Positions 729 through 16,850 of a DNA stretch of 39,708 bases are shown here, piece after piece; the first letter of the stretch is position 1, and each line of letters starts with the position of its first letter. The position numbers and the translations under genes were made by a program. Origin of the DNA: Pseudomonadales bacterium (GTDB taxonomy: Bacteria > Pseudomonadota > Gammaproteobacteria > Pseudomonadales > Pseudohongiellaceae); the NCBI GenBank assembly GCA_028279115.1, contig JANQSV010000159.1, positions 1 through 39,708 on the forward strand, written 5' to 3'. The notes beneath the pieces are model-generated. The model was not told the origin of the DNA and did not search any database. It saw nothing but the letters and a program-made list of their open reading frames with translations.

Positions 729-2969
729 ATGATGAAACAACCGAAACTGAGCCGGCGCAAGTTCCTCCTCGTCTCCGCCGTCGCCGGCGGCGGCGTGCTG
801 ATCGGCTACGCGGCCACCCGTCCGAGCCGCCACCGGCGCGCCAACGACACGCTCGCCTCGGGCGGCGACCGCTTCGTCACCTCCTGGATCAGGCTGCAGC
901 CCGATAACCGGGTAACGATTTACGTGCCCCATGCGGAAATGGGCCAGGGCGTGCACACTTCCCTGGCGATGATGGCCGCCGACGAACTCGACGCGGCCTG
1001 GGAACTCGTCGATGTCGAACAGGCCCCCGCCACCGACCTGTTCGCCAACGAAGCCGTGGTCGCCGGTTTCGGCGAGGAGTTGCTGCCGGAATTCCTCATG
1101 GGACTGGTCAATTTCGCCGCGCTTCCCGCGGCGCAGATCGTCAACATACAAATCACCGGCGGCAGTTCCTCGGTGCGCTATACCGGCGAGAACAGCATGC
1201 GCGCGGCCGGCGCGGCGGCGCGGCGGATGCTGCTCGAATGCGCGGCCGAACGCTGGAGCGTTGCGGCGGAGGAATGCGCAACCGAATCGAGCCACGTGAT
1301 TCACTCCGCCAGCGGCCGCTCGATCGCCTATGGCGAATTGGCCGATGGCGCCGCCCGGCTAGAGCCGCCGGCAAATCCCGTGCTCAAGGACCGCTCGCAG
1401 TTCAACATCATGGGCAGGGCGATTTCGCGGCGCGACATTCCGGCCAAGGTCGACGGCAGCGCGCCCTACGGCATCGACGCCCATAGCGGGGACATGTTGT
1501 ACGCCGCCTTGCGGCTGGCGCCGGTGTTCGGCGCCAGACTGGCCTCGGTGAACGCCGAAGAGGCGCTCGCTCAACGCGGCGTGCGCAAGGTGGTCGAACT
1601 CGAAGATGGCTATGCCGTGGTCGCCGACAATTACTGGCGCGCGAAACAGGCGCTCGAACTGGTCGAGGCCGAATTCGCGCCGACCGAAAACGACAGCGTC
1701 TCAAGCGCGGTGCTCGCGGAAAGATTCGACCGGGCGCTGGCGGAGAGCAACGGATCGCGGGATTTCGAGAGCGGCGACGCCGATGCCGCGCTGGAAGACG
1801 CGCAAGACGTGTTCGAGGCGAGCTACCGGGTGCCCTATCTCGCCCACGCCGCCATGGAGCCCATGAATTGCACGGTGCATATCCAGGGCGACCGGGCCGA
1901 TCTCTGGACGAGCACCCAGGACGCCCTTGGCATCAAGAGCCGGGTTGCCCGAGTTGCGGGTCTGAGCGAGGACAATGTCACATTCCACCACAGCTATCTC
2001 GGCGGCGGCTTCGGCCGGCGCCTGCCTTTCACCTGGAACGTGATCGATCACGCCACGCTGATTGCCCAGGAAGTCGCGAAGCAATTTGACGCGCCGGTGA
2101 AAACGATCCTCACTCGCGAGGAAGACATGCGCCAGGATTACTACCGGCCCGCCGTACACAGCAACTTCAAGGCGGCGTTCGACGCCGAAGGACGCGTGAC
2201 GGCCTGGCATAACCGATTCACGGGCCCGATCCAGGTTCCTGGCGCAGCGCATATTCCGTACGGCATTCCCAACCAGTCGATTCGCGTAGTCGATGTGGAG
2301 ACCCATGTGCCGATCGCCTCCTGGCGCAGCGTCGATCATTCGCAGCAGACTTTCTTCATCGAGTCCTTCATCGACGAGATCGCCCATCGCGGGGGAACCA
2401 ATCCCTACCAGTTGCGAATGGAACTCCTGCAGGATCACCCGCGCCATCGCAACGTGCTGCAAGTCGCGGCCGAGTCGGCGGGATACGGCAGCGGGTTGCC
2501 CGAGGGCCGCGCCCTCGGCATCGCCGTCCAGGAAAGTTTCGGCAGCATCGCCGCCCAGGTCGCCGAAGTCTCGATCGGCGGCGACGGCCGGCCGGTTGTG
2601 CACAAGGTAACCTGCGCGATGGACTGCGGCTGGGTGGTAAATCCCGACACCGCCGAGGCCCAGATCGAAAGCGGCATCATCTTCGGATTGACCGCGGCGC
2701 TGTATGGCGCGATCACCATCGAGGACGGCCGCGTCGTGCAAGGCAATTTCCCGGATTACGAGATGTTGCGCATGGCCGACTCGCCGGAAATCGTCGTACA
2801 CCTGGTCGAGTCCGGCAACGCGTTGGGAGGCCTCGGCGAACCGGCAACGCCGCCCGTGGCCGCCGCAGTCGCCAACGCGATCTACATCCTCACCGGCCAG
2901 CGAGTCCGCGAACTCCCCATCGGCGACCGTGATTTCTCTATCGACCAGTCGCTTGCGGGCAATGTTTGA
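729..2969 (+). CDS. xanthine dehydrogenase family protein molybdopterin-binding subunit (isoquinoline 1-oxidoreductase beta-like)
   Basis: 746 aa; Tat-like N-terminus SRRKFLLVSAVAGGG; GGGFGRR and ALGGLGEPATPP motifs; directly downstream of the 2Fe-2S subunit. Confidence 0.93.
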   Translation: MMKQPKLSRRKFLLVSAVAGGGVLIGYAATRPSRHRRANDTLASGGDRFVTSWIRLQPDNRVTIYVPHAEMGQGVHTSLAMMAADELDAAWELVDVEQAPATDLFANEAVVAGFGEELLPEFLMGLVNFAALPAAQIVNIQITGGSSSVRYTGENSMRAAGAAARRMLLECAAERWSVAAEECATESSHVIHSASGRSIAYGELADGAARLEPPANPVLKDRSQFNIMGRAISRRDIPAKVDGSAPYGIDAHSGDMLYAALRLAPVFGARLASVNAEEALAQRGVRKVVELEDGYAVVADNYWRAKQALELVEAEFAPTENDSVSSAVLAERFDRALAESNGSRDFESGDADAALEDAQDVFEASYRVPYLAHAAMEPMNCTVHIQGDRADLWTSTQDALGIKSRVARVAGLSEDNVTFHHSYLGGGFGRRLPFTWNVIDHATLIAQEVAKQFDAPVKTILTREEDMRQDYYRPAVHSNFKAAFDAEGRVTAWHNRFTGPIQVPGAAHIPYGIPNQSIRVVDVETHVPIASWRSVDHSQQTFFIESFIDEIAHRGGTNPYQLRMELLQDHPRHRNVLQVAAESAGYGSGLPEGRALGIAVQESFGSIAAQVAEVSIGGDGRPVVHKVTCAMDCGWVVNPDTAEAQIESGIIFGLTAALYGAITIEDGRVVQGNFPDYEMLRMADSPEIVVHLVESGNALGGLGEPATPPVAAAVANAIYILTGQRVRELPIGDRDFSIDQSLAGNV

Positions 2970-3010
2970 CCATTGAATGCGGCTTGAGCCATGCTTGAGC
3001 CACATTGATT

Positions 3011-3030
3011 CAGCCGCTTGCTGAAGCGGA
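3011..3030. repeat. left copy of 20-bp direct repeat CAGCCGCTTGCTGAAGCGGA (candidate attL)
   Basis: Exact match to 15756-15775; contains inverted repeat CCGCTT-GCTG-AAGCGG. Confidence 0.6.
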
Positions 3031-3218
3031 ACGTGGCGCTCAGAGAATCCCAACTCTATTCCTCGCTCCGGCGAAGCTGCGACGAATTGCGCGATTCGGT
3101 GAGCCGACACGGCGATTTTGAACAATTCGCGAGTCGAATCGGGTCTGCATTCGAAAGATGGGTATCGCGACAGGAGGATTTCATGCGTATGACGTGGAAC
3201 GTGGAGGAATCGCAATGA
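3018..3218 (+). pseudogene. hsdM remnant: start region fused to a C-terminal-region segment, internal part missing
   Basis: From GTG 3033, VALRESQLYSSLRRSCDELR matches MALKKSQLYSSLWQSCDELR of the intact HsdM; downstream HGDFEQFASRIGSAFERW matches HEEFRKFSKRVAEVFNNW of the same HsdM; stop overlaps the next start (ATGA). Confidence 0.7.
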
Positions 3219-4351
3219 AAGGCGCGCTTGATAAACTCAGTGTCCAAGGATTCAAATCGATTCGCGAACTGAAAGACTTTCAGTTTAATGACTTGAACGT
3301 AATTGTGGGAGCAAATGGTGCGGGAAAAAGCAATCTAATCGAGTTGTTTCGAATGCTTGCGGCAATGGCTGAAAAGAATTTCAGCAAGTTTGTTCTTGCG
3401 CACAATGGAGCGGACGGATTCCTTTTCAACGGTCCGAAAGTCACTTCCGTCATCAGCGCGGAATTCGTTTTTACTTCCCATAGCGATTTTCCCATAGGCT
3501 CGAACATATATAGATTCGAGGCCACTCCGACTGCCGATGGCCGGAAATTTCTTCTATCCGAAGAGCGTGAATATGTGACTACGAGTCCTAGATCTTATGG
3601 TCCAGCCGCAGAGGAAAGCCGCCTTCGGGATGAGAAGGATGAAAAATCGGCAGATGGGAATTGGAATGGAGTTGGGTATTTTGTATATGAGTCAATCTCA
3701 AATTGGATGATCTATCATTTTCACGATACAAGCGCGAATACTCCAATGCGTCGTTATGAAATCATCGAGGATTGCCAGCGCCTTCGATCTGACGCGTCAA
3801 ATATCGCCCCTTTTCTTTTTCACTTAAAACAAGATCACTGGGACTCGAACTGCTACAAAGAGATATTGAACTCAGTTCGGTTGGTCATACCATTCTTTGA
3901 TGACTTCCGACTCGATGTGCATAAACTTGGAGAAGCCAACAAAGTAGCTTTGAGTTGGCAACAAAAGGGGTCCGACTTTCCCATGCAGCCCTTCCACCTC
4001 TCGGACGGTTCAATCCGCTTTATCTGCTTGGCCACCGCGCTACTTCAACCGTCGCCACCGTCGATGATCATTATCGACGAACCTGAGTTGGGACTCCACC
4101 CGGAAGCCATCGGGATTTTGAGCGAACTCATCCAGGATGCGGCGAAACGGACGCAAATCGTTGTTGCGACACAATCGCCGCTCCTGCTGGACCAGTTCGC
4201 AATCGAAGACGTCATAGTGGTCAACCGCAGGAACGGGCAATCCACGTTCGAGCGGCTCGAACGCGCTGATTACGATCAATGGCTGAAAGAATATTCCGTC
4301 GGCCAACTCTGGACCAAGAATGTCATCCAGGGAGGCACGACGAATGAGTAG
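3215..4351 (+). CDS. AAA family ATPase (AAA_21/COG4637-like)
   Basis: FKSIRELKDFQFNDLNVIVGANGAGKSN Walker A; IIIDEPELGLHPEAIGIL Walker B/signature; VVATQSPLLLDQF; ATG 3215 with GGAGGAA upstream. Confidence 0.9.
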   Translation: MKGALDKLSVQGFKSIRELKDFQFNDLNVIVGANGAGKSNLIELFRMLAAMAEKNFSKFVLAHNGADGFLFNGPKVTSVISAEFVFTSHSDFPIGSNIYRFEATPTADGRKFLLSEEREYVTTSPRSYGPAAEESRLRDEKDEKSADGNWNGVGYFVYESISNWMIYHFHDTSANTPMRRYEIIEDCQRLRSDASNIAPFLFHLKQDHWDSNCYKEILNSVRLVIPFFDDFRLDVHKLGEANKVALSWQQKGSDFPMQPFHLSDGSIRFICLATALLQPSPPSMIIIDEPELGLHPEAIGILSELIQDAAKRTQIVVATQSPLLLDQFAIEDVIVVNRRNGQSTFERLERADYDQWLKEYSVGQLWTKNVIQGGTTNE

Positions 4352-5024
4352 TTATGCGGAAGTCGTCGTTTTGACCGAAGGCCGGACGGAACAGCTTTTC
4401 ATCAAACGACTTCTTGCGCCCCACATGGGATTGCGGGGTGTCTACCTGACACCCGTCCAATTGGACAAGCCGGGCCAGAAAGGCGGCGACGTGCGCTTCG
4501 TGCGGGCAAAGAATGACATTGCCCGGCACTTGAAGCAGCGAAACGACACCTATGTGTCGCTAATGGTTGACTACTACGGCATTGGCGGCGATTGGCCGGG
4601 ACTCGATGCCGCGCAAGCGCACACAAAGCCGAGCGATATTGCTTCCGTAATTGGCGCGGCGACTCAGGAAGCCATCGACGCCGAGTTGGCGGACTACCGC
4701 TCAAACGCCCGTTTCGTGCCGCATGTTTCGGTCCACGAGTTTGAAGCGCTGCTTTTCAGTAAACCCGACAGTTTGGCGAACGCTCTCGAAGTAGACCGTA
4801 AACGCATAGACGCGATCATTGAAGAATGCGGCGAACCCGAGGCGATCGACAATTCCCCACATACGGCGCCATCCACGCGCATCGCACGGCTTTACGACCG
4901 TTTCAAGAAAACGAGCACGGGCATCGCCATCGCACGGTCGATCGGGATTGAACAGATGCGTTCGATGTGTCCCGTGTTCAACGGCTGGCTGGGCCGCCTG
5001 GAATCGCTTGCGGTTGGCGCCTGA
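4344..5024 (+). CDS. DUF4276 family protein (TOPRIM-like/RloB-like)
   Basis: VVVLTEGRTEQLFIKRLL, MVDYYGIGGDWPGL, HVSVHEFEALLFSKP motifs; start overlaps AAA gene stop by 8 bp. Confidence 0.85.
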   Translation: MSSYAEVVVLTEGRTEQLFIKRLLAPHMGLRGVYLTPVQLDKPGQKGGDVRFVRAKNDIARHLKQRNDTYVSLMVDYYGIGGDWPGLDAAQAHTKPSDIASVIGAATQEAIDAELADYRSNARFVPHVSVHEFEALLFSKPDSLANALEVDRKRIDAIIEECGEPEAIDNSPHTAPSTRIARLYDRFKKTSTGIAIARSIGIEQMRSMCPVFNGWLGRLESLAVGA

Positions 5025-5055
5025 CACTAATTGCGTGTAGCACAAAGGTTGCGCC

Positions 5056-5208
5056 ATGATGCGGAGCCACAAGGACGTATTTACTGAATCGGTTGCGAAT
5101 CGGGAAGCGCAAATGCGAAGTGCGAGAACATACATGAGCACGAAAGACGGAAACGGCAGGCTGCCGGCCATCCATCCGAGTGAAATTCTCAACGCGGTCA
5201 CCGGCTGA
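5056..5208 (+). pseudogene. small ORF ending in a HigA-type antitoxin N-terminal fragment
   Basis: 50-aa ORF MMRSHKDVFTESVANREAQMRSARTYMSTKDGNGRLPAIHPSEILNAVTG; RLPAIHPSEIL resembles HigA IHPGEIL start; stops before any HTH. Confidence 0.45.
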
Positions 5209-5216
5209 AACAGAAC

Positions 5217-7658
5217 ATGGCGCTCAAGAAATCTCAGCTTTATTCTTCGCTCTGGCAGAGTTGCGACGAACTGCGCGGCGGCATGGACGCTTCGCAGTAC
5301 AAGGATTACGTGCTGACGCTGCTGTTCATGAAGTACGTCACGGACAAGCACGAAAGCGACCGCGACGCGCTGATCGAAGTGCCGGAAGGCGGCGGCTTCG
5401 TCGATATGGTCGAACTCAAAGGTCACAAGGAAATTGGCGACAGGATCAACAAGATCATCGGCAGGCTCGCGGAAGCCAACGATCTCAAAGGCGTAATCGA
5501 TCAAGCCGACTTCAACGACGAAAGCAAACTGGGCTCGGGCAAGGCGATGCAGGATCGCTTGTCCAAGCTCGTCGGCATCTTCGAAGATCTCGATTTCAGC
5601 GCCAACCGCGCCGGTGGCGACGACCTGCTCGGCGACGCCTATGAATACCTGATGATGCATTTCGCCACCGAATCGGGCAAAAGCAAGGGGCAGTTCTACA
5701 CCCCCGCCGAAGTCTCCCGGATCATCGCGAAGGTTGTTGGCATCGGTCCTGAAACGCGCCAGGACCAAACGATTTACGATCCCACCTGCGGTTCGGGCTC
5801 CCTTTTGTTGAAGGCCGTTGACGAAGCGCCGAACGGAATCTCGGTCTACGGACAGGAAATGGACAACGCCACCTGGTCCCTGGCCCGAATGAATCTCATC
5901 CTGCATGGTCAGGAGACCGCCGAGATTTGGCGCGACAATACGCTTTCCGACCCCTACTTCAGAAATGAGAACGGCAGCCTCAAGACTCATGATTTCGCCG
6001 TCGCAAATCCGCCGTTTTCCTTCAAGTCCTGGTCCACTGGTTTTGACCCGGACCACGACGAGTTCAATCGCTTCGAATACGGCGCGCCACCCGCCAAGAA
6101 TGGCGACTACGCCTTCCTGCTCCACCTCATAACATCGCTCAAAAGCCGCGGCAAAGGCGCGATAATCCTGCCCCACGGCGTACTGTTTCGCGGCAACCGC
6201 GAAGCTGAAATCCGTCGCAATCTCATCCAGCGCGGCTTGATCAAAGGCATCATCGGCCTTCCCGCCAACCTGTTCTATGGCACCGGCATCCCTGCCTGCA
6301 TCATCGTCATCGACAAGGAAGGCGCCTCGCTTCGCGGCGGCGTTTTCATGATCGACGCGAGCCGCGGATTCATCAAGGACGGCAACAAGAACCGCCTACG
6401 CGAACAGGACATCCACCGCATCGTCGATGTGTTCACCGAACAAATAGAAGTTCCCCGTTACTCGCGCATGGTTCCGGTGGCGGAAATCACAAGCGAGGCC
6501 AACGACTGCAACTTGAACATCCCGCGCTACATCGATTCGAGCGAACCCGAAGACTTGCACGACCTCGAAGCCCACCTGCGCGGCGGCATCCCGAACCGGG
6601 ACATCGAAGCGCTCGGAGAATACTGGTCAGTATTACCGTCGATTCGCGAAGCGCTGTTCGAGGATTTCGGGCGGGAAGGCTACAGCAAAGCGCGAATCGG
6701 CATTCAGGAAGTGAAAACGGCGATTCCCGGCCACGAAGAATTCCGCAAATTTTCCAAGCGTGTCGCAGAAGTGTTCAATAACTGGCGCGAAATTTATCGG
6801 GGCCGGCTGAGCGGAATCCATTCCGGGACCGTGCCAAAGTTCCTCATCGCCGAGTTGTCCGAAGAAATACTGAGCGAATTCGCGGATTCGCCGCTTATAG
6901 ACCCTTACGATGTCTACCAGCGCCTGATGGACTATTGGCAGGAAACCATGCAGGACGATGTGTATCTGATCGTGGGCGAAGGCTGGCGCGACGCCGCCAA
7001 GCCGCGCGGCATCGTCGAAGACAAGCGGCGCAAGCTCAAGGAAACGCCCGACCTCATCGTCAAGCGCCGTAAGTACAAGCTCGACCTGATCCCGCCCGAA
7101 CTCGTCGTCAACCGCTATTACGCGGAGGAAAGTACCGAAATCGAATCATTGCGAACGAAATGCGACGCGGCATCAAGGGAGTTGGAAGAGTTCGCAGAGG
7201 AGCACACCGGTGAAGATGGGCTGCTCGAAGAAGCCCTCAACGACAAGGGCAAACTGACCAAGGCCAGCGCAACTGCCAGATTGCGGGCGATCCGCGCCGA
7301 ACCGGACGGCGAAGAAGAACAGAAGCTACTCGACAAATGCCTGACGCTGCTTACCGCGGAAGCCGACGCGGCCAAGGCGGCAAAGGACGCGCAAGCAGTT
7401 CTCGATGCCCTCGTGCTCGAACGCTACGCCTATCTTTCGGATGCGGAAATCAAGAGTCTGGTGGTAGAAGACAAATGGCTCGCCACCATCCAAGCCGCAA
7501 TCGAGTTCGAACTGCGGAACGTCGCTCAACGCCTTGCGGCCCGCATTGCCCAAATTGAAGAACGCTACGCCAAACCGCTCCCAGACCTGGAACGGGACGT
7601 TGAGATTTACAGCCGCAAGGTCGAAAGGCATCTGGAAAAGATGGGGATCGCATTGTGA
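5217..7658 (+). CDS. hsdM: type I restriction-modification system methyltransferase subunit M (long, ~813 aa form)
   Basis: FMKYVTDKHES, GQFYTPAEVSRIIAK, YDPTCGSGSLLLKA (SAM motif I), VANPPFSFKSW (NPPF catalytic motif). Confidence 0.97.
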   Translation: MALKKSQLYSSLWQSCDELRGGMDASQYKDYVLTLLFMKYVTDKHESDRDALIEVPEGGGFVDMVELKGHKEIGDRINKIIGRLAEANDLKGVIDQADFNDESKLGSGKAMQDRLSKLVGIFEDLDFSANRAGGDDLLGDAYEYLMMHFATESGKSKGQFYTPAEVSRIIAKVVGIGPETRQDQTIYDPTCGSGSLLLKAVDEAPNGISVYGQEMDNATWSLARMNLILHGQETAEIWRDNTLSDPYFRNENGSLKTHDFAVANPPFSFKSWSTGFDPDHDEFNRFEYGAPPAKNGDYAFLLHLITSLKSRGKGAIILPHGVLFRGNREAEIRRNLIQRGLIKGIIGLPANLFYGTGIPACIIVIDKEGASLRGGVFMIDASRGFIKDGNKNRLREQDIHRIVDVFTEQIEVPRYSRMVPVAEITSEANDCNLNIPRYIDSSEPEDLHDLEAHLRGGIPNRDIEALGEYWSVLPSIREALFEDFGREGYSKARIGIQEVKTAIPGHEEFRKFSKRVAEVFNNWREIYRGRLSGIHSGTVPKFLIAELSEEILSEFADSPLIDPYDVYQRLMDYWQETMQDDVYLIVGEGWRDAAKPRGIVEDKRRKLKETPDLIVKRRKYKLDLIPPELVVNRYYAEESTEIESLRTKCDAASRELEEFAEEHTGEDGLLEEALNDKGKLTKASATARLRAIRAEPDGEEEQKLLDKCLTLLTAEADAAKAAKDAQAVLDALVLERYAYLSDAEIKSLVVEDKWLATIQAAIEFELRNVAQRLAARIAQIEERYAKPLPDLERDVEIYSRKVERHLEKMGIAL

Positions 7659-7729: not shown

Positions 7730-8080
7730 GTGGATGAAGGTAAGCGCTTACCGGCGCGGTTTTTCGCGACCGAAAGTGGCCGGATGCCCGTTCGCATGTG
7801 GCTGCTTGGTCTTTCCGACGCGGATAGGAAACGCATTGGCGACGACATTCGAACGGCTGAGTTTGGGTGGCCTATCGGAATGCCTTTATGCCGCAGGATG
7901 ACGGGTCACGAAGGACTGTGGGAAGTTCGGACGGACTTGCCGGACCAGAGGACCGCACGAGTCTTGTTCTGCGTCTTCTCGGGTCACATGGTTTTGCTTC
8001 ATGGCTTTATCAAGAAGTCCCGGAAAACGCCCAAGTCCGATCTCCATTTGGCAACGAAAAGAATGAGGAGCTTGACATGA
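7730..8080 (+). CDS. type II toxin-antitoxin toxin, RelE/HigB (phage Gp49-like)
   Basis: GTG start; LWEVRTDLPDQRTARVLFCVFSGHMVLLHGFIKKSRKTPKSDL matches the Gp49/HigB-like pattern; ATGA overlap with downstream XRE gene. Confidence 0.85.
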   Translation: MDEGKRLPARFFATESGRMPVRMWLLGLSDADRKRIGDDIRTAEFGWPIGMPLCRRMTGHEGLWEVRTDLPDQRTARVLFCVFSGHMVLLHGFIKKSRKTPKSDLHLATKRMRSLT

Positions 8081-8370
8081 CCGAAGACATCGAAAAAGGC
8101 CATCTTGGGCAGTATTTTGAAGAGTTTCTGAAGGAACAGGGCACGTATGAGAGTACTACCGCGCAAGCCGTAAAGCGCGTGCTTGCCTTCCAGATATCAG
8201 AAGCCATGAAGACGCAAGGTCTCTCGAAAGTGGAAATGGCGCGCCGCCTGCACACGAGCCGGTCACAGCTTGACCGATTGCTTGACCCTGAGAATGAGGG
8301 GGTGACCGTCGGCATGCTTGCGCGCGCCGCCAAAGCGGTTGGCCGCGAACTCCGGATCGAGCTCGCGTGA
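8077..8370 (+). CDS. XRE-family antitoxin (HTH)
   Basis: ISEAMKTQGLSKVEMARRLHTSRSQLDRLLDPENEGVTVGMLARAAKAVGRELRIELA helix-turn-helix; overlapping toxin stop. Confidence 0.88.
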   Translation: MTEDIEKGHLGQYFEEFLKEQGTYESTTAQAVKRVLAFQISEAMKTQGLSKVEMARRLHTSRSQLDRLLDPENEGVTVGMLARAAKAVGRELRIELA

Positions 8371-8581: not shown

Positions 8582-9874
8582 ATGATTGAGGCTCCAACAG
8601 GCAACATTGGCTACTCCAAAGTAGCCGGCCATAGAGAGGAAGACACGCCTGTGGGGTACAAGCGCACCGAAGTGGGATTAGTACCGGAAGATTGGAGCAT
8701 TTCGACCGTCGGCGCCGAGTTCAGAGTACAACTCGGCAAGATGCTCGACGCAGCGAAAAATCAGGGAGTATCGAAACCGTACGTTGGTAATCGTTCAATC
8801 CAGTGGGGACATGTGAATGTAGACGCCATTGAAACAGTTTCGCTGACTCCGGTCGAATTAAATCGATTTCTTCTCCGACGTGGTGACCTGCTTGTATGCG
8901 AAGGTGGCGAGATAGGCCGCGCTGCAATTTGGAACGATCCGATCCCAGAGTGCTACTACCAAAAAGCTCTACACCGACTTCGGCCAATTCGCGGCTACAA
9001 CTCGTTATTGATGATGTTCTTGCTTCGACTCTGGGCAACTACTGGTTTTCTGACGAACTTCGCAACTCGGACAAGCATTGCTCATCTTCCAAAAGAAAAC
9101 TTTGAAACAATCCCTCTACCTGTTCCGCTGGATCATGAACAACGCGCCATCGTTGAGGCGTTGTCGGATGTGGACAAGTCGCTCGAATCGCTGGACGCAC
9201 TGATCGCAAAGAAGCGAGCGATCAAGAAGGCCGCCATGCAGCAACTCCTCACTGGCAGGACTCGCCTACCGGGATTCAGTGGGAAATGGGAGAGAAGGCA
9301 GCTTAAGCACGTTTTGGATTGTCTCGATCATGTCCGAATACCTTTGAATGAATCTCAGCGAGCAAAAATGCCGGGTTCCTATCCATATTGTGGCGCAAAC
9401 GGAGTCCTTGATTACGTTAATGACTTTGTTCTTGACGATGACGTGATTCTGATTGCCGAGGATGGTGGATACTTCGACGAATACACCCACCGGCCAATTG
9501 CGTATCGTATGTCAGGAAAGATTTGGGTAAATAATCACGCACATATCCTTAAAGCAAAGTCTGGCTATAGTCAGGGATTCCTATACTTGTCTTTGGTTCA
9601 TAAAAACATTCTCCCTTACTTGGCTAGCGGAACTCGCGCAAAACTCAATAAGTCTGAGATGAACAAAATTGAAATTTACCTTCCGCTTCAGGTTGCTGAA
9701 CAAACGATAATCGCCGAATTCCTTTTGAACATGGATTCCGAGATTACCGCTCTGGAGCAGCGCCGCGAAAAGACCCACGCCATCAAGGAAGGTATGATGC
9801 AGGAGCTTCTTACTGGACGGGTGCGTTTAATCGAGCCAAGCGACCAACTCGTCAAAGCGGGGGTTGCGCCATGA
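8582..9874 (+). CDS. hsdS: type I restriction-modification specificity subunit S
   Basis: GYKRTEVGLVPEDWSIS start; two TRD/spacer repeats: EQRAIVEALSDVDKSLESLDALIAKKRAIKKAAMQQLLTGRTRLPGF and EQTIIAEFLLNMDSEITALEQRREKTHAIKEGMMQELLTGRVRL. Confidence 0.96.
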   Translation: MIEAPTGNIGYSKVAGHREEDTPVGYKRTEVGLVPEDWSISTVGAEFRVQLGKMLDAAKNQGVSKPYVGNRSIQWGHVNVDAIETVSLTPVELNRFLLRRGDLLVCEGGEIGRAAIWNDPIPECYYQKALHRLRPIRGYNSLLMMFLLRLWATTGFLTNFATRTSIAHLPKENFETIPLPVPLDHEQRAIVEALSDVDKSLESLDALIAKKRAIKKAAMQQLLTGRTRLPGFSGKWERRQLKHVLDCLDHVRIPLNESQRAKMPGSYPYCGANGVLDYVNDFVLDDDVILIAEDGGYFDEYTHRPIAYRMSGKIWVNNHAHILKAKSGYSQGFLYLSLVHKNILPYLASGTRAKLNKSEMNKIEIYLPLQVAEQTIIAEFLLNMDSEITALEQRREKTHAIKEGMMQELLTGRVRLIEPSDQLVKAGVAP

Positions 9875-11460
9875 AACCCCTCCGCATCTTCATCAGCAGC
9901 GTACAGCGGGAGTTTGGCGATGAACGAAAGGCGCTCGCCGACTATCTGCGCAACGACCCGATTATGCGGCGCTTCTTCCAAGGTTTCCTGTTCGAGGAAC
10001 TTCCAGCTTCGGATAGGGCGCCAGATAAAGCCTATCTGGATGAAGTGGGTCGCTGCGACATCTATGTGGGTCTGTTCGGGAAGGACTACGGCGCAGACGA
10101 CGGGACCGGAACGTCGCCTACGGAGCGCGAGTTCGACCATGCCACGGCGCTCGGCAAGTATCGCCTGATCTTCCTGAAAAATGCGCCTTCCGACGTTCGG
10201 CATCCGAAAATGCAAGCGTTGATCGGCAAGGCCGAAGCCGGACTGATTCGCAAGCGATTCAATACGCAAGAAGAACTCGTGCCTAGTCTCTACGCTGCAT
10301 TGGTGGAGTACCTGGAGGACAAGGAACTGCTGCGTTTCGAACCGTTCGACGCTGCGCCTTGCACAGGAGCCACGCTGGACGACCTGGATTCCACGCGGAT
10401 GATCCGGCTCATACGCACAGCCCGTGGGACCAGACAGTTTCCACTGGATGAAAACACGTCTCCCGAGGACTTGCTCCGGCATCTGAACCTTTTGAACAAG
10501 GGTCGATTGACCAACGCCGCTATGTTGCTGTTCGGGAAAGCGCCGCAACGGTTCTTGATTTCGTCCGAAATCAAGTGCGCCCATTTTCACGGCACGCAGG
10601 TCGCAAAACCCATCCCTTCCTATCAGGTTTACAAGGGCACGGTGTTCGATCTGGTGGATCAGGCCGTGGATTTTGTGTTGAGCAAGATCGCGTTGTCCAT
10701 CGGTACGCGGGCGGAAAGCACCGAAGTACCCATCGCCTATGAGATCCCCAAGGAAGTGATAACCGAGGCCATCGTGAACGCTGTGGCCCATCGCGACTAT
10801 ACGGACAACAGCAGTGTGCAGGTTATGCTCTTTGCTGATCGGCTGGATGTGATGAATACCGGCCGATTACCGCCGCCGCTAACGGTGGAGAAACTTCGTG
10901 TCGCGCACGAGTCCCTGCCCCGCAATCCCTTGCTCGCGGAGCCCATGTATCTGGCCGGATACATAGAACGCATGGGTACCGGTACGGTGGACATGATTCA
11001 GCGCTGTGCAGCGGCCAATCTGCGGGAACCGGAGTTCGCGGCCGGTGAAGACTTCGTCACAACGATTTGGCGACCCAACGACGCGACTCGACCGGCTGGA
11101 GTGCACGATGCAGACAAAACCGGAGTCCAAATTGAGCCAGAGTCGAGGCCCGAGTCGGGATCACAGCCAGAGTCGCGGCCAGAGTCACAGCCAGAGTCAG
11201 AACCACAGCCAGAGTCGCGGTTGTTGACAGAGAGAGTGCTCGGCCTGCTGATAAATGGATCGATGTCCAAGGCGAAGCTATCGAAGAATTTGGGTCAGAA
11301 AGAAGTATCCGGGCAACTCAACAAAGTAGTTCGGTCGCTTATGTCGGAACAATTGATCGAGTACACCCTGCCGGAAAATCCCCGCAGCCGATTGCAACAA
11401 TATCGACTTACGCCTAAGGGGCGCGCTGCCATCGAAAACCTCGGAACTGACGGCACATAA
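9871..11460 (+). CDS. DUF4062 domain protein with HATPase_c_4/RecG-like (AlbA_2-type) region and C-terminal winged helix
   Basis: N-term MKPLRIFISSVQREFGDERKALADYLR and GLFGKDYG (DUF4062); EIPKEVITEAIVNAVAHRDYTDNSSVQVMLFADRLDVMNTGRLPPPL and ERMGTGTVDMI (HATPase_c_4); ATGA overlap with hsdS. Confidence 0.9.
   Translation: MKPLRIFISSVQREFGDERKALADYLRNDPIMRRFFQGFLFEELPASDRAPDKAYLDEVGRCDIYVGLFGKDYGADDGTGTSPTEREFDHATALGKYRLIFLKNAPSDVRHPKMQALIGKAEAGLIRKRFNTQEELVPSLYAALVEYLEDKELLRFEPFDAAPCTGATLDDLDSTRMIRLIRTARGTRQFPLDENTSPEDLLRHLNLLNKGRLTNAAMLLFGKAPQRFLISSEIKCAHFHGTQVAKPIPSYQVYKGTVFDLVDQAVDFVLSKIALSIGTRAESTEVPIAYEIPKEVITEAIVNAVAHRDYTDNSSVQVMLFADRLDVMNTGRLPPPLTVEKLRVAHESLPRNPLLAEPMYLAGYIERMGTGTVDMIQRCAAANLREPEFAAGEDFVTTIWRPNDATRPAGVHDADKTGVQIEPESRPESGSQPESRPESQPESEPQPESRLLTERVLGLLINGSMSKAKLSKNLGQKEVSGQLNKVVRSLMSEQLIEYTLPENPRSRLQQYRLTPKGRAAIENLGTDGT
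11135..11220 (+). repeat. degenerate tandem repeat (CAGCCAGAGTCR), encodes P-E-S repeats
   Basis: Repeated ccagagtc units encoding ESRPESGSQPESRPESQPESEPQPESR interdomain linker. Confidence 0.85.
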
Positions 11461-15749: not shown

Positions 15750-16850
15750 TCAATCCAGCCGCTTGCTGAAGCGGAGCACCGCGAGCGTCAGGGCGACCGC
15801 CGTGAAAATGGCGAGGGCGGCGAGTTCCTGCATCATCAATGAGACATCGGCGCCGCGCAGGATGATGCCGCGGATGAGCCTGTTGAAATGTGTCAGCGGC
15901 AGGACCTCGGCGATGTACTGGGCGATCTCGGGCATGCCTTCGAAGGGAAACATGAAACCCGAAAGCAGGATCGAAGGCAGGAAGAAAAAGAAGGTCATCT
16001 GCATGGCCTGAAACTGGGTCGCGGCGACCGTGGAAATCAGCAGGCCCAACGACAGATTGGCGGAAATGAATACCAGCGACACGGCCAGCACCTGCCATTC
16101 GCTGCCCATGATCGGCACCGAGAAAATCGTGCGGCCCAGCGCGAGAATGATGACGAGCTGGATCAGCCCGATGACGATGTAGGGAACGATCTTCCCGAGC
16201 ATCAGTTCCACCGTCCGCACCGGCGTGTTGATCAGCAATTCGAGATTGCCGCGTTCGCGCTCGCGCACGATGGCGATCCCGGTGAACAGCACCATGGTCA
16301 TGGTCAATACGACGCCGACGAGGCTGGGCACGATATTCACGGCCGAACGCCGCTCGGGATTGTAGTAATTGCGCACTTCGATCATGCGCTGCCGCTCCTG
16401 CAGGCCCGTCTGGGAATCGAAGCGCACCGGAATCGTGGCGAGCTGTTCCGCCACGCCGAGAATGATCGGATCCGTGCCGTCGACGAGCAGTTGCAGCGCC
16501 GGGCGGTCGCGGGCTATCACCCGGCGGTCGAAATCGTCTGGAATGGCGATGCCTACCGAGACCGCCCCCGAATCGAGCAGCCGGGTCAGTTCCTCCGCGC
16601 TCGCGAGACGCTGACGCAGCACGACCACCTGGGTTGCGCTCATGTCGGCGAGTAGCTGGCGGGAGAGATGGCTGTCGGCTTCGTCGACGTATGCCGCGCT
16701 CAGATTGCGCACATCGGTATTGATGGCGTAGCCGAACAGCAGCAACTGGATCAGCGGGATGCCGACGATCATGCCGAAGGTGAGCCGGTCCCTCGACAGT
16801 TGCAGCAACTCCTTGTGCATGATGGCGAAGATGCGGACCAACGATCTCAT
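15750..16850 (-). CDS. ABC-2 type transporter permease (YhhJ-like)
   Basis: 366 aa; MRSLVRIFAIMHKELLQLSRDRLTFGMIVGIPLIQLLLFGYAINTDVRNL; RERERGNLELLINTPVRTVELMLGKIVPY. Confidence 0.93.
   Translation of the reverse strand: MRSLVRIFAIMHKELLQLSRDRLTFGMIVGIPLIQLLLFGYAINTDVRNLSAAYVDEADSHLSRQLLADMSATQVVVLRQRLASAEELTRLLDSGAVSVGIAIPDDFDRRVIARDRPALQLLVDGTDPIILGVAEQLATIPVRFDSQTGLQERQRMIEVRNYYNPERRSAVNIVPSLVGVVLTMTMVLFTGIAIVRERERGNLELLINTPVRTVELMLGKIVPYIVIGLIQLVIILALGRTIFSVPIMGSEWQVLAVSLVFISANLSLGLLISTVAATQFQAMQMTFFFFLPSILLSGFMFPFEGMPEIAQYIAEVLPLTHFNRLIRGIILRGADVSLMMQELAALAIFTAVALTLAVLRFSKRLD
15756..15775. repeat. right copy of 20-bp direct repeat (candidate attR) in 3' end of ABC permease gene
   Basis: CAGCCGCTTGCTGAAGCGGA, exact match to 3011-3030. 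Confidence 0.6.

Follow-up and report, generated by a model that had tools for sequence, protein, structure and literature searches.

An open reading frame preceding a HEC-01 ATPase gene is very probably a chance-open chimera of hsdM and mod relics

In the PADLOC naming, HEC denotes an Hma-embedded candidate (PMC12988326), and Hma itself has been described separately (PMC8565338). Homologues of the HEC-01 genes also lie in Type III-like restriction-modification (RM) operons: on the Aeromonas plasmids NZ_CP067418 and NZ_CP040718 they are located between mod and a DEAD/DEAH helicase gene (the helicase gene being 3′ of the DUF4276 gene), and at locus L055 an intact Type III-like Mod of 1087 aa (MTase_III 3.3e-197, N6_N4_Mtase 1e-28) is encoded directly upstream of the ATPase gene, its end (EEEFMKRMWNTEGMS-stop) overlapping the ATPase start. 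Here we analysed a 39,708-nt stretch of DNA (contig JANQSV010000159.1 of a Pseudomonadales bacterium of the Pseudohongiellaceae; hereafter the window), in which such a pair is preceded by a mini-ORF carrying hsdM sequence and followed by hsdM, gp49, HTH, hsdS, DUF4062/HATPase and hsdR, a Type I set that looks complete. The features considered are as follows.

2970–3032, forward strand: xdhB-hsdM intergenic segment in the ancestral arrangement, the hsdM upstream region common to the sister genomes
3009–3030, forward strand: left copy of a 22-bp direct repeat, a copy of the 3′ end of the downstream ABC permease gene
3018–3218, forward strand: mini-ORF, from TTG 3018 to TGA 3216–3218, 66 aa from the TTG and 61 aa from GTG 3033
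3033–3092, forward strand: hsdM 5′ remnant, residues 1–20, with GTG replacing ATG
3086–3159, forward strand: hsdM interior remnant, about residues 498–521, in frame with the 5′ piece and joined to it at a TGCGCG repeat
3153–3168, forward strand: probable hsdM 3′-tail remnant; the hsdM tail codes for LEKMGIAL, the frame here is another one, and the joint is at AAGAT
3169–3214, forward strand: putative 3′ tip of a Type III-like mod (EDFMRMTWNVEE), holding the ATPase Shine-Dalgarno GGAGGA at 3203–3208
3215–4351, forward strand: HEC-01A, AAA_21 ATPase (Pfam AAA_21 6.7e-36; PADLOC HEC-01A 6.3e-129), its start overlapping the mini-ORF stop (ATGA)
4344–5024, forward strand: HEC-01B, DUF4276 protein (Pfam DUF4276 1.5e-51; PADLOC HEC-01B 9.8e-69), overlapping the end of the ATPase gene
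5025–5216, forward strand: orphan linker; its short frame ends in LPAIHPSEILNAVTG-stop, 12 nt ahead of the intact hsdM
5217–7658, forward strand: intact Type I hsdM, 813 aa (N6_Mtase 6.6e-97, HsdM_N 6.2e-17), 92% identical to the hsdM of genome G081
15754–15775: right copy of the 22-bp direct repeat, at the 3′ coding end of the ABC permease gene (15750–16850, reverse strand)

Judged by these profile matches, the ATPase gene is HEC-01A and the DUF4276 gene HEC-01B, together a candidate defence pair. Among 137 genomes of the family, only that of the window was found to carry a close version, and homologues at 41–42% identity occur in two others; viral contigs yielded no close HEC-01A relative. 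A sub-threshold Pfam match (0.023) toward an OLD-like TOPRIM partner suggests that HEC-01 may be an ATP-driven sensor with such a partner; the AlphaFold model of the DUF4276 protein, built from three sequences, had a mean pLDDT of 42.

The open frame reported in the initial annotation is present, as is the overlap of its stop with the ATPase start (ATG 3215), its length being slightly below the 67 aa given there. The hsdM-equivalent start is GTG 3033, at the place of the ATG in hsdM, and the hsdM homology begins 12 nt upstream of it. The ungapped match of 3021–3092 to 5205–5276, previously counted by hand as about 15 differences over 72 positions, all transitions, was confirmed exactly (57 of 72 positions identical, 15 transitions, 0 transversions); an all-transition divergence of this size is somewhat unusual, with a chance of roughly 0.02 given the 77% share of transitions in the comparison of the intact hsdM with that of G081. 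The coding part (3033–3092) holds 13 of the differences, distributed over codon positions 1, 2 and 3 as 4, 2 and 7, so that the remark that many fall at third positions was fair. At the protein level, the 20 N-terminal residues scored 75–79 against HsdM, which none of 2000 and none of 1000 shuffles reached. Pfam and NCBIfam profile searches of the 66-aa product gave no match; the N6_Mtase domain is absent, having been deleted (Pfam search, 66 aa), and the mini-ORF is therefore a relic, not a working hsdM.

The alignment check likewise bore out the proposed HsdM similarity in the middle of the frame, which scored 63 against residues 500–522 of the HsdM of genome G096 (0/1000 shuffles, best shuffle 43) and 48 against residues 501–523 of the intact window HsdM (1/1000 shuffles). 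A Mod origin for this middle part was rejected, 980 of 1000 shuffles scoring as high. Comparison of the first joint in G096, where the codons ahead of the retained interior read AAACTGCGCGAC, with the relic (GAATTGCGCG) and the intact 5′ end (GAACTGCGCG) places the first deletion at the TGCGCG repeat, in frame. Further downstream, the relic sequence AAAGATGGGTATCGCG resembles the hsdM 3′ tail (GAAGATGGGAATCGCG in genome G134 and AAAGATGGGGATCGC in the window hsdM); this 16-bp piece is not significant on its own (25/300 shuffles), and 3153–3168 is probably the hsdM 3′ tail by its collinearity with G134. The meeting of interior and tail at AAGAT, where the tail is out of frame, would be consistent with a second short-repeat deletion, short direct repeats being present at both hsdM deletion joints. 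Thus, where a single large internal deletion had been proposed, a large internal deletion is indeed seen, but the segment records at least two deletions and a third junction.

The source of the hsdM pieces is indicated by related genomes. In G081 and G096, both of the same genus as the window, an intact hsdM lies within about 65 bp of xdhB, with no ATPase or DUF4276 gene between them. Window positions 739–3093 align continuously with G081 at 94.5% nucleotide identity and positions 732–3093 with G096 at 81.5%, in both cases through the first 60 coding bases of the relic. Because the alignment runs without a break from xdhB across the intergenic segment into the start of the relic, the relic is located at the site of the resident hsdM; the majority of the 30 genus loci examined have no hsdM beside xdhB. 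G134, another relative within the genus, has a second decayed hsdM at this locus beside xdhB, in the order residues 393–477, a 45-bp stretch and tail residues 802–813, followed by the same gp49 and HTH genes as hsdM in the window. The 45-bp stretch is 96% identical to window 3115–3159. This fragment order identifies the stretch as hsdM interior and puts the relic and the G134 copy in one allele class, distinct from the intact hsdM of the window. The relic interior also resembles the alleles of G096 and G134 more closely than it does the intact copy. Consequently, the hsdM part of the mini-ORF is well supported, by sequence comparison, as the remains of a divergent hsdM allele resident at this site, in agreement with the initial view of a divergent second allele and not a fresh duplication. 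As a separate observation, the DNA of the intact window hsdM is 86% identical to that of the G096 hsdM up to about residue 474 and diverges sharply beyond it, a pattern that suggests a recombination boundary inside hsdM.

The 3′ end of the mini-ORF has a different affinity. The close relatives of the ATPase are those at L016 (80% identity), L017 (77%) and L055, L056 and L057 (66–67%). The tail of the mini-ORF product, QEDFMRMTWNVE, matches residues 1072–1084 of the L055 Mod (protein score 42, 2/1000 shuffles), and the last 46 nt of the mini-ORF segment match the corresponding DNA of L016 (global nucleotide score 10, 3/2000 shuffles) and L017 (5/2000 shuffles); at the nucleotide level, the comparisons with L055 and L057 were not significant (about 20–25% of shuffles). 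Although short, the match argues with moderate strength that the last ~46 nt, ATGA overlap included, derive from the 3′ end of a Type III-like mod and are foreign to hsdM. If so, the overlap was inherited from a mod-ATPase pair and not created by hsdM. At four loci (the window, L016, L017 and L057) the mod tip has been kept though mod itself is gone, the remnants at the last three being independent: L016 has a 102-aa frame composed of Mod 1–62, Mod 247–270 and the tip, ending at the ATPase start; L057 retains only the mod 3′ end, within a 56-aa open frame ending at the ATPase start; and L017 retains a mod 3′ end with in-frame stops and a frameshift, upstream of an intact ATPase gene.

What the tip contributes is suggested by the initiation signals. 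The GGAGGA lies about six bases upstream of the ATPase start, and the anti-Shine-Dalgarno pairing of that start ranges from −9.3 to −10.0 kcal/mol over the window (−9.3), L016, L017, L055 and L057. In comparison, GTG 3033 has a weak and badly spaced Shine-Dalgarno (−3.5 kcal/mol, spacing 1) and TTG 3018 has none; a promoter scan of 2900–5300 found no promoter. Since it holds the ATPase ribosome-binding site, the mod tip is most likely the functional part of the segment, and we infer that this site gives the simplest reason for its retention. Retention on these grounds requires no translation of the relic, which the in-frame stops at L017 support.

The mini-ORF had also been proposed to act as a leader, and selection for a translated leader, with ribosomes re-initiating at the ATGA and so coupling HEC-01 expression to upstream translation, is one alternative. 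The frame is open across all joints and runs into the overlap, and the open mod-remnant frames of L016 and L057 reach the ATPase start as well. However, the ATPase stays intact behind the disrupted frame of L017, and the strong Shine-Dalgarno is the ATPase's own and not that of GTG 3033 or TTG 3018. In the window, moreover, the tip can be entered in three frames: the first reaches the overlap by default, the second meets a stop 25 nt before it, and the third would continue into the ATPase as a fusion, so that an open, overlapping relic is approximately a one-in-three event and no evidence of selection. We therefore find the leader role unsupported as originally stated and selection for it unlikely; translational coupling of the mini-ORF to the ATPase is possible but not required.

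Taken together, these comparisons make it very probable that the mini-ORF is a chimera of gene relics, open by chance, in which a collapsed hsdM is followed by a block of mod tip and HEC-01 genes, and that a coded product is unlikely. From the homologies and gene order we infer the following course of events. A divergent hsdM resident beside xdhB would have collapsed through deletions between short direct repeats, the first (TGCGCG) joining residue 20 to about residue 500 and the second (AAGAT) joining about residue 521 to the hsdM 3′ tail. Afterwards, a block of the HEC-01 ATPase and DUF4276 genes, bringing the last ~46 nt of mod, would have been joined to the collapsed hsdM, with an intact hsdM of another allele class then following the HEC-01 block. 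The relic segments are short, as is the mod-tip match, and the chimera occurs in one genome only, a draft assembly of 424 contigs, so that a mis-joined assembly is a slight possibility.

The 72-bp repeat formed by the relic and the start of the intact hsdM could alternatively be a recombination site that permits clean loss of the HEC-01 block, with G081 as the product. Such an event would fit the G081 locus, where xdhB directly precedes an intact-type hsdM and relic-like DNA lies upstream of a gene identical to the intact copy at the 13 informative coding sites. G081 may equally well represent the older state, however; inside the repeat, a single informative site upstream of the start agrees with the relic, and sequences of 72 bp with 79% identity make a poor substrate for homologous recombination, which leaves this improbable.

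We consider it very improbable that the whole 67-aa frame is HsdM, as the initial annotation had it, the product of one large internal deletion in a single pseudogene. Residues 1–20 and about 500–523 are HsdM and in frame, but the C-terminal ~15 aa that match Mod find no match in HsdM (886/1000 and 550/1000 shuffles scoring as high), and the DNA to which the tail corresponds in L016 and L017 is that preceding the ATPase. That the frame represents a conserved family of small stand-alone proteins unrelated to HsdM, for example a third HEC-01 component, is highly improbable: small frames do precede the ATPase in L016 and L057, but a check for the same mini-ORF there found different remnants, pieces of Mod sharing the 3′ tip alone, the profile searches revealed no family, and the more distant HEC-01A loci have assorted upstream frames with no evident common one.

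The two copies of the 22-bp repeat differ by one mismatch and bracket a 12.7-kb restriction island; a dispersed genomic repeat was rejected, as the whole genome contains only these two copies (up to 3 mismatches). The repeat also occurs near xdhB in the G134, G135 and G097 loci, flanking inserts in G134 and G097 and lying at the permease end in G135, and the gap between xdhB and the permease gene accordingly resembles a hotspot of insertion, the repeats being att-like. The linker at 5025–5216 has no match elsewhere in the 137 family genomes; the end of its short frame (MSTKDGNGRLPAIHPSEILNAVTG-stop) may resemble the start of a HigA-type antitoxin, and the linker is possibly another gene relic. 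Elsewhere in the island, a Gp49-like toxin and HTH antitoxin pair lies between hsdM and hsdS (7730–8370), and a gene for a DUF4062 + HATPase_c_4 protein lies between hsdS and hsdR (9871–11460), overlapping hsdS by 4 nt and ending 2 nt before hsdR; the latter gene adjoins hsdS in G081 too.

Decay has usually made the gene relics of defence islands illegible, whereas here the joints, the source genes and, in a sister genome, a second stage of decay are visible. These features suggest that Type III-like and Type I restriction loci have exchanged the candidate defence pair HEC-01, which retained the ribosome-binding site of its former neighbour. A broader generalisation is offered tentatively: the HEC-01 pair may travel from one methyltransferase locus to another, carrying the terminal ~45 nt of its former upstream mod as a portable translation-initiation segment and repeatedly leaving or meeting collapsed methyltransferase genes at its left edge (the window, L016, L017 and L057). 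Small ORFs annotated next to defence genes call for caution, as they can be chimeric scars.

Compared with HEC-01 as defined in PADLOC, the genes of the window are likewise adjacent, in the same order and overlapping, with strong profile matches, but they lie in a Type I RM island behind a chimeric relic, with no Hma locus recognised alongside. With the Type III-like RM operons of L055 and the Aeromonas plasmids the window shares an ATPase start that follows or overlaps the mod end, while differing in that the mod tip alone is kept, neither mod nor res being present at the ATPase. Finally, as in hsdM pseudogenes of Type I RM systems, N-terminal and interior HsdM pieces lie beside a seemingly intact hsdM-hsdS-hsdR; here, in contrast, the relic has shrunk to about 135 bp and is fused to a foreign mod tip. 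The relic is a fresh instance of a known phenomenon, the decay of genes and exchange of modules within a restriction island, and the mini-ORF a readable record of defence-island rebuilding and not a new kind of gene.
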